A DNA stretch of 64,000 nt from Aestuariispira ectoiniformans (GTDB lineage: Bacteria > Pseudomonadota > Alphaproteobacteria > UBA8366 > Aestuariispiraceae): assembly GCF_025136295.1 (NCBI RefSeq), contig NZ_CP062788.1:4295588-4359587 (forward strand), read 5' to 3'. Positions 12,445-33,922 of the stretch are shown here, in pieces (position 1 is the stretch's first letter; each line of letters opens with the position of its first letter). The notes beneath the pieces were generated by a model. The model made no database searches. It was not told where the DNA came from and worked only from the letters and a program-made list of their open reading frames with translations. The position numbers and the translations under genes were made by a program.

Positions 12445-12466
12445 GGCAAAGCCAATTGGCTTTGCC
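12445..12466 (-). promoter_or_regulatory. 22-bp perfect palindrome in the helicase leader
   Basis: GGCAAAGCCAATTGGCTTTG continues to CC and is a perfect inverted repeat 43 bp before the helicase start codon. As RNA it forms a 9-bp hairpin with an AAUU-type loop; as DNA it could be a dimer binding site. It may control the helicase gene. The remainder of the 291-bp gap at 12403-12693 holds no gene. Confidence 0.5.
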
Positions 12467-23808: not shown

Positions 23809-24140
23809 GGCATCTCCTTCAAAATCGCATCTGTTTTTGGGAAAGGGGGATCGCGGCCGGTTATCGCAGGACCTGGGAAACCAGGGACCAGGGGATGTCC
23901 CACAGGGGGCATAAAGATCACTGCGGCCGGCGGCGAACCGGAAAAGGGGATGGGCCGGTGCGAGGAGGCATGGGGCCGGGACGTCTCGGGGCGGTGCCTT
24001 TCGGCTCTTCAACGCGTCAGGCGCGCGCCCATCTCCTACAGTCCCACCCAAAGGCGGTTATCCATCCGGGGATACTGATCACAGGAACGATGGTGAAATC
24101 TGAGATCGCCTCAACGAGCGATCCATCACCCGTCCCGTGA
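23809..24140 (-). other. Gene-free leader between putative late promoter and capsid
   Basis: A GC-rich stretch with open frames but no protein-like translation on either strand. It contains the nested helices at 23948-24049 and a small CCTGG-gaaa-CCAGG hairpin (23872-23885). It may be an untranslated leader, or the scar where upstream phage genes (portal, scaffold) were lost. Confidence 0.5.
23948..24049 (-). ncRNA. Candidate structured RNA in the capsid-gene leader
   Basis: On the minus strand, 5' GGGUGGG (24049-24043) pairs with CCCAUCC (23954-23948). Inside it, AGGAG-AUGGG (24037-24028) pairs with CCCAU-gc-CUCCU (23974-23963), 5+5 bp with a 2-base bulge. The enclosed loop holds a CGCG hairpin (24013-24025) and a GCC-GAAA-GGC tetraloop hairpin (23996-24005). 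No known riboswitch class was recognised. It lies 140 bases before the capsid start and would be transcribed from the putative promoter at 24148-24176. Confidence 0.5.
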
Positions 24141-24147
24141 TGATTGA

Positions 24148-24206
24148 GAGATAGCAAAGGCGTTCCTAAAAGTCAAGAACAAAATGAGAACATATATGAC
24201 TTTTAG
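24148..24206 (-). promoter_or_regulatory. Putative LexA-controlled leftward phage promoter
   Basis: Read on the minus strand: a direct repeat GTTC-N7-GTTC (24191-24177), the alphaproteobacterial LexA box pattern, directly abuts a -35 TTGACT (24176-24171). A 17-bp spacer leads to -10 TATCTC (24153-24148). A 10-bp inverted repeat CTAAAAGTCA/TGACTTTTAG (24166-24175 and 24197-24206) brackets the box. Transcription would enter the capsid leader. A GTTC-N7-GTTC match is expected about twice by chance in 64 kb, so the weight comes from its position. Confidence 0.5.
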
Positions 24207-24253
24207 TCTATTCCCCTGAGCGCGTTAAGTGACCAAACCATTTCCATTTTAGA

Positions 24254-24294
24254 TTGCATATCAGAAACAAATAATTTATAGAGTTGCAACTCTA
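24254..24294 (+). promoter_or_regulatory. Promoter with 16-bp palindromic operator for the two-gene cassette
   Basis: TTGCAT (24254-24259), a 17-bp spacer and TATAGA (24277-24282) form a good sigma-70 promoter. TAGAGTTGCAACTCTA (24279-24294) is a perfect 16-bp palindrome covering the -10 and start site, the position expected of a repressor operator. The first cassette gene starts 22 bp on. No repressor gene is nearby. Confidence 0.6.
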
Positions 24295-24316
24295 GCACGT
24301 AATACCGAGAGGGATT

Positions 24317-24718
24317 ATGGACAGCGCATATCAATGGATATTTAGCGGAGTGGGCACATCTTTTGTTGGTGCAATTTTGTCTCTTTTTTTCGCGTTGGTA
24401 TCGCGCAAGTTTCGGAATGACGCACGAGACCAAGTAAAAGCAACAAAGGGTAAAATGCTTGCACCTCGGTTGGATAACGCCATTTCCGCACTGCACAGAT
24501 TAAGGACCCAACCGCAAAAATCGTTCGACCAAGCTTCCGCGCTGATGGGAGAGTTTCTTACCGAATTTCCAAGCCAAACTAAAGAGTACAAACAAGTAGC
24601 AGATGCGCAAAGGCTTTGTCACAGCTATCAAACTGTGCTTTCCAGCCAGCAAACGGACGACTTAGCATTCGAAATTCGGACTATTTTGCAGAACGTTTCA
24701 GCGGACTTGAAGAACTAA
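24317..24718 (+). CDS. Uncharacterised small membrane protein, cassette gene 1
   Basis: A protein of 133 residues, with GAGAGGG upstream. One membrane helix at about 7-29 (WIFSGVGTSFVGAILSLFFA), then a basic junction (SRKFRNDARDQVK) pointing to a cytoplasmic C-terminal part of mostly helical character. AT-rich compared with the surrounding genes, suggesting transfer. No family recognised. Probably cotranscribed with the gene 20 bp downstream. Confidence 0.6.
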   Translation: MDSAYQWIFSGVGTSFVGAILSLFFALVSRKFRNDARDQVKATKGKMLAPRLDNAISALHRLRTQPQKSFDQASALMGEFLTEFPSQTKEYKQVADAQRLCHSYQTVLSSQQTDDLAFEIRTILQNVSADLKN

Positions 24719-24738
24719 GACACTTAGGATGGCTATTC

Positions 24739-25098
24739 ATGGAATTAGAAGCAGAGATCAAAAAGATCAAATTTCAAATATCTCTGATTGGTGAAGCAAT
24801 CAGATATAACGAGAACCCACTAACCAGCCTTGTTATCGAGTTGGATTGGTCCGAAGAAGACCTGGAAGCGGCTCATGACTGCTTCGAACAAGCCGAAACT
24901 GTCCTCAATAACAATCCACAAGACTTTAATAATGTAATGTTCGAAAAACTCTTCAAGGAAAAATTGGGCGTGGGGTACCAGAGAGTCAAAGCGATAGTGC
25001 TGGCATTCTATCGAGAACATCGCTGGACATCCGTGTGCGTAGCCTATGCAAATTCTTTCGGGGACACGCGGCCGTCTGAATTGATGAGCATTACATAA
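24739..25098 (+). CDS. Uncharacterised small soluble protein, cassette gene 2
   Basis: A protein of 119 residues from ATG 24739; the frame is open for 41 more codons that overlap gene 1 and look spurious. An N-terminal helix (MELEAEIKKIKFQISLIGEA) is followed by LVIELDWSEEDLEAAHDCFE, an acidic helical middle and YQRVKAIVLAFYREHRWTSV. No signal peptide, membrane helix or recognised domain. Its pairing with a membrane protein beside a prophage would fit an accessory or exclusion/defence pair, but this is inference from context. Confidence 0.6.
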   Translation: MELEAEIKKIKFQISLIGEAIRYNENPLTSLVIELDWSEEDLEAAHDCFEQAETVLNNNPQDFNNVMFEKLFKEKLGVGYQRVKAIVLAFYREHRWTSVCVAYANSFGDTRPSELMSIT

Positions 25099-25258
25099 AA
25101 ATTCACTAGCTCACTTCTCAATATGATCTCAGATCAGACAGAACATACATCCCGCCGCAAAACCGCGCCCTTCCGTCGCTTGCTGGCTTGACCTCTGCGG
25201 CTCGCTGGACCAATCTGCGCGTCCATAATTGTTAGGACGTTATTCAGGGGTAAAGCCA

Positions 25259-33825: not shown

Positions 33826-33922
33826 CTCGGGCTCCTCCCAAATCTCATGTTTGGCCGTTTATAACAAAGCAAAGCGTCACCGCCAAGATTTTCCATACGC
33901 ATGCGTATGGACCTCCATACGA

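Follow-up and report, generated by a model that had tools for sequence, protein, structure and literature searches.

The closest described relatives of protein B, one of the two proteins discussed here, are YhaI and the other members of DUF1878 (PF08963), which Pfam describes as a family of unknown function. In our literature searches, which reached few subscription papers, we found none that names DUF1878, and YhaI is mentioned in connection with Bacillus subtilis. In that organism, insertions in yhaJ, yhaI and scoC are reported to have been recovered in a sporulation screen (PMC4703394). The DUF1878 model, when run over 14 control genomes, found a match in B. subtilis alone, and no relatives of YhaI were detected in viral contigs or plasmids. 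In gene organization, the nearest systems are the two-gene abortive-infection and toxin-antitoxin units, in which a small membrane protein is accompanied by a soluble partner. Rare, mobile pairs of a membrane and a soluble protein located beside integrases are common among protection systems.

In this report, we describe a gene pair, A and B, in a 64,000-nucleotide stretch of DNA from Aestuariispira ectoiniformans (hereafter “the window”). B is related to DUF1878, and A is a membrane protein. Very probably, A and B together make up a single mobile two-protein module. The whole of the evidence is, in our view, best explained by a mobile, membrane-tethered accessory module that protects the cell or stops its growth when triggered by a cue, and we assign this reading a probability of roughly 0.4.

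The gene pair in the window

The pair consists of two small, intact open reading frames on the plus strand (Table 1). It is bounded on the left by a phage structural block that ends at about 24051 and on the right by a gene at 25256, which we take to be dapD, the name it received in the first-pass annotation. The GC content of the kilobase 24001-25000 is 0.446, against 0.52-0.64 in the window’s 63 other kilobases, in agreement with the earlier description of the gene pair as AT-rich. All 14 family genomes examined contain a homologue of the gene at 25256; inspection by eye of the region upstream of dapD in 12 family relatives revealed no gene order in common with the window. A perfect 10-bp inverted repeat, ATCTGAGATC, flanks the cassette (24098-24107 and 25125-25134), and matches of the same size occur elsewhere in the region.

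Table 1. Features of the A-B locus, in window coordinates
Feature	Position	Strand	Description	Basis or remark
Proposed promoter, TTGCAT-N17-TATAGA	24254..24282	+	weak sigma-70-like hexamers; 7/12 consensus bases	read from sequence
Candidate operator, TAGAGTTGCAACTCTA	24279..24294	.	perfect 16-bp palindrome	no conservation upstream of homologues
Likely RBS of A, GAGAGGG	24307..24313	+		inferred from sequence reading
Gene A	24317..24718	+	133 aa; N-terminal transmembrane helix at about residues 11-29, then a basic stretch and further helices	ranked first by held-out profile
Likely RBS of B, TAGGATGG	24725..24732	+	inside the 20-bp A-B gap	inferred from sequence reading
Gene B	24739..25098	+	119 aa; soluble, all-helical; divergent relative of DUF1878/YhaI	held-out profile, E 3.1e-41

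The region upstream of A had been read as a promoter belonging to the pair, with a palindrome covering its -10 element. Hexamers can indeed be discerned, but they match the consensus at only 3/6 and 4/6 positions and fall under the 9/12 limit of our promoter scan, which returned one other site in the region versus 1.6 expected in shuffled sequences. The palindrome is real and perfect, but of the proposed -10 (24277-24282) it covers only the final four bases. By first-order Markov simulation, a perfect 16-bp palindrome would turn up by chance in the 177 bp upstream with a probability of about 0.003, but the window holds three in total, the others being AAAGCCAATTGGCTTT (12448-12463) and CATACGCATGCGTATG (33894-33909). 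A genome-wide search that allowed up to 2 mismatches turned up no second copy of TAGAGTTGCAACTCTA, and the palindrome was not seen upstream of any of nine homologous A genes. The cassette’s description as “repressible” is therefore unsupported, and TAGAGTTGCAACTCTA is a possible operator.

The phage block (13674-24051, minus strand) is of podovirus type, with an endolysin, a large terminase, tail proteins, an internal virion protein and a major head protein. It appears to be cut next to the head gene; no portal was found among the ten phage-block proteins scanned, and no direct repeats resembling attachment sites were found between 12350 and 25300. This setting bears on the proposal that the adjacent prophage carries the pair as a moron, expressed in lysogeny and serving superinfection exclusion. 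The window pair does abut the structural block, A is membrane-anchored, and at one other locus (described below) a B gene ends a phage-like element. However, neither A nor B matched anything in 50,697 phage records, an absence that weakens the moron reading, and the AT-rich cassette starts past the phage block, from which it differs in direction and composition. Further, most homologues reside on plasmids or islands, and in the sole viral contig found to carry it, the pair is placed past the integrase of the prophage and adjoins a second one. We consider a moron improbable.

Given that no portal was found among the ten scanned proteins of the neighboring phage block, the region may have lost material, and one could view A and B as decaying leftovers without function. 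That both frames are intact and retain the motifs of their families makes this very improbable, as do the dN/dS values of homologous pairs, which are well under 1: 0.05 and 0.21 for A (two pairs, a third being saturated) and 0.11, 0.05 and 0.10 for B (three pairs, two of these values being rough because synonymous distances exceed 2.6). On these estimates, both genes are under purifying selection.

Proteins A and B

B has the properties expected from its annotation as a small, helical, soluble protein: its predicted structure is all-helical with a mean pLDDT of 93.2, and it has no hydrophobic segment (best 19-residue mean 0.57). The accompanying statement that neither protein matches a known family is wrong for B. 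The DUF1878 model matches window B with an E-value of 5.9e-4 (20.8 bits, below the cut-off of 23), and each of the 11 aligned B proteins matches PF08963 at E ≤0.1, the best at 1.9e-9. In a search of the PDB, the B-family profile aligned its positions 5-109 to positions 5-111 of 1sed chain A (E 4.2e-7). At the level of fold, VIA-align placed 1sed in the first row for window B (Z 10.3, rmsd 4.0, 104/110 residues aligned; next row 5.3). The structural likeness surfaced in VIA-align alone, as plain Foldseek with the B model gave no significant match in the PDB or among viral models, and 1sed was absent among the 24 matches listed. The profile match to 1sed and the VIA-align score identify B as a divergent relative of DUF1878/YhaI, a family to which no function has been assigned, although window B alone falls under the Pfam cut-off. 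Its homology to the other B proteins is firm, given the result obtained with a profile from which the window protein was held out (Table 1). At E 0.001, the Pfam model does not detect B in the window’s own genome, and the profile of its relatives does. The relatives’ profiles used for the genome counts below include the window protein; the held-out profile is a separate test.

The evidence for A is of a different kind. A single hydrophobic N-terminal segment (best 19-residue mean 1.91, residues 11-29) agrees with the annotation of A as a single-helix membrane protein. Window A shares just 14-22% identity with other A proteins. Nonetheless, a profile built from nine A homologues, with the window protein held out, ranked window A first of 709 window ORFs, with E-values of 7.3e-4 for the whole sequence and 0.018 for the best stretch (next ORF 1.1), and it aligned to window A at a conserved C-terminal AQ..Y..Q stretch. 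This rank, taken with the position, length and topology of the protein, makes it likely that window A is homologous to the other A proteins.

Several candidate families for A were considered and set aside. Residues 17-48 match the YtxH-like family (PF12732) at E 0.11 and 13.3 bits, under the curated cut-off of 37.5, and this family is not among the matches of the ten A members at E 0.1; the Pfam matches of these members are scattered. PADLOC, which returned nothing for B, offered for A just the candidate defence protein PDC-M43A (E 0.013), in the membrane-helix region only and for 1 of 10 A members, and we do not accept the identification. An NCBIfam match to CadC (E 0.0012, but 17.7 bits against a threshold of 400) and a PHROG terminase match (E 0.12) were judged to be due to chance. 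The A profile had no meaningful match in the PDB. The predicted structure of A is helical, but the model is poor (mean pLDDT 69.3); a fold search with it returned only generic helical bundles and was not relied on.

Distribution, pairing and neighborhoods

Single-sequence queries with the window proteins yielded no confirmed relative in viral or genome contigs, where it took the B alignment to bring relatives to light. Relatives of B were located in six plasmid records (four from Agrobacterium fabrum and one each from Methylomonas and Methylobacterium), in five genome contigs (a Methylococcaceae MAG, Novosphingobium, Roseovarius, Paracoccus and a Rhodobacteraceae MAG, the last apparently the genome we list as G601), in one viral contig and in one further genome, G292. 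Over the first 8.4 kb of the locus (L003), the four A. fabrum records share 99.6-100% identity, and one represents them all. A second viral scan with more members returned the same one contig and nothing further. The frequency of B was 2/385 in the class, 2/398 in the phylum, 2/394 in the family of G292 and 1/43 in the window’s order, samples that overlap in part; A was found once among the 385 genomes of the class, in the window’s own. As far as these searches reach, the pair is rare and patchy across alpha- and gammaproteobacteria.

In the loci read, A is nearly always the neighbor of B. An A-like gene encoding an N-terminal hydrophobic segment lies directly upstream of B in all nine loci read (L002-L010); in L009, the listed A frame starts downstream of the helix, whose codons precede it in the same frame. 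In these nine loci, the end of A runs 1-11 bp into B, whereas a 20-bp gap separates the two genes in the window. No A lacking a B came up in the searches with A; a plasmid search with Roseovarius A retrieved the same six records as one with Roseovarius B, and each of five genomes or records holding the pair has one copy of A. The converse exception is G292 (L012/L016), where B is present without a full-length A. Pairwise distances of A and B over ten loci are correlated (r 0.87, a value reached by 0 of 5000 label permutations), in part because linked genes are inherited together.

Two small, adjacent, coupled genes, overlapping in 9 of 10 loci, are also the layout of a toxin-antitoxin system. 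A could accordingly be a membrane toxin and B its antitoxin, retained because they stabilize plasmids and islands. The overlapping ends, the location on plasmids and islands, the combination of a small membrane protein with a soluble partner and the HicA gene that adjoins the pair in L005 are all consistent with an addiction module. On the other hand, A exceeds the usual membrane toxins, which are smaller proteins, in size; its conserved part follows the helix; B matched no DNA-binding family in the family-model searches; and one B occurs without a full-length A. We regard addiction as unlikely, but as a serious rival.

The neighborhoods were surveyed with Pfam (30 chosen neighbors) and PADLOC (ten). 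Three tyrosine recombinases neighbor the pair in L002. In L003, it sits in a block that is variable among plasmids: the four A. fabrum plasmids have it, and the other listed plasmids share the right flank only, without the block. L004 contains an rve-type transposase and, further downstream, a patatin-like gene; in L005, the HicA gene is downstream of the pair; L007 features a DDE transposase, as well as an HTH protein whose match to phage replication is weak; and the L009 contig ends at the locus. In L010, the upstream side carries a P4-type integrase and the downstream side a MobA relaxase, and the locus adjoins a prophage region with its own integrase. In the Novosphingobium locus (L006), by contrast, the neighbors look like core genes when the ORF list is read by eye.

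At L008, SIR2 (E 4.9e-154) and HerA (E 0) genes lie directly upstream, and the pair starts about 0.85 kb after this operon. It is the only examined locus with a recognized phage-defence operon near the pair. At L008:237-2974, the SIR2 reading frame aligns with just the C-terminal portion of the PADLOC model and lies next to a HerA match of full length; SIR2 may be truncated and the SIR2-HerA defence operon damaged. The orphan B of G292 (L016) lies between a phage-like element, with integrase, terminase, capsid, prohead protease and portal genes, and a tRNA-Asp gene. This compact element (L016:1-10500), at the end of which B is found, also has an HNH-like ORF (by eye) and has the appearance of either a small prophage or a capsid-encoding satellite.

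The first-pass annotation had proposed to check whether homologues always adjoin each other in phage or defence islands. Their adjacency was found in 9/9 loci read; the one B lacking a full-length A stands apart. As to context, most surroundings are integrases, transposases and plasmid regions, and once a SIR2-HerA operon, but L006 lies beside apparent core genes. Overall, the homologues are neither single genes scattered through housekeeping contexts nor clear matches to a known metabolic or structural family, but L006, the orphan B of L012/L016 and the DUF1878 match in B. subtilis depart from this picture. The consistent adjacency, the mostly mobile DNA and the pair that follows SIR2-HerA together favor the idea of a two-gene accessory trait.

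A proposed role and its relation to known systems

The pair is rare, and its members occur jointly on mobile DNA such as plasmids and islands; it may thus be a shared protection or maintenance device. Rare, mobile cassettes that pair a membrane with a soluble protein and adjoin integrases, as here, and in one case SIR2-HerA, are common among protection systems, and we therefore tentatively regard host protection as the likeliest use of the module. In the scheme that we prefer, A would be anchored in the inner membrane and extend its helical C-terminal part into the cytosol, an orientation suggested by the basic residues that follow the helix. B would dock on this cytosolic part, and translational coupling would keep the two proteins in ratio. 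A cytosolic cue, probably attack by a phage or foreign element, would change the state of B, which would then release or cluster A. Finally, A would perturb the membrane or recruit a further factor, such that the cell is protected or its growth stops. The defence role is the least-supported step of this model. A narrower version, namely an undescribed anti-phage system that has spread horizontally among alpha- and gammaproteobacteria, and in which infection is sensed in the cytosol by a DUF1878 protein that then triggers its membrane partner, is possible but doubtful.

The kinship of B with YhaI raises another serious rival to host protection, a mobile regulatory or stress module in which B acts like the Bacillus protein and A serves as its membrane anchor. 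The resemblance of B to YhaI extends over both sequence and fold, and the yhaJ, yhaI and scoC insertions reportedly recovered in the sporulation screen are compatible with such a function. A rare, patchy and mostly mobile spread is nevertheless unlike that of a housekeeping regulator, and the likeness of A to YtxH is insignificant. This function thus seems to us rather improbable for the pair.

To our knowledge, and as far as literature searches that took in few subscription papers reach, the mobile A-B pair has not been described before. A mobile, tightly paired proteobacterial branch of DUF1878 provides a handle on the family, as it comprises just two small, clonable genes. By analogy, the A-B pair may explain what YhaI binds in Bacillus.

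Among known systems, the B family resembles YhaI/1sed by profile over nearly its full length, and window B does so by fold. The proteobacterial B clade differs from YhaI/DUF1878 in carrying clade-specific conserved positions (YQ..K, W and VC.AY) and in its residence mostly on mobile DNA, and it adjoins A in 9/9 loci read, with one further B standing without a full-length A. A has a faint likeness to YtxH-like proteins, in the weak match noted above and in a layout, an N-terminal membrane helix with a helical remainder, that we take to be comparable; its likeness to PDC-M43A is confined to the membrane-helix region. With the two-gene membrane units of abortive infection and toxin-antitoxin systems, the pair has in common a small membrane protein, a soluble partner, coupled genes and mobile contexts, but we found no sequence relation between these units and A-B.
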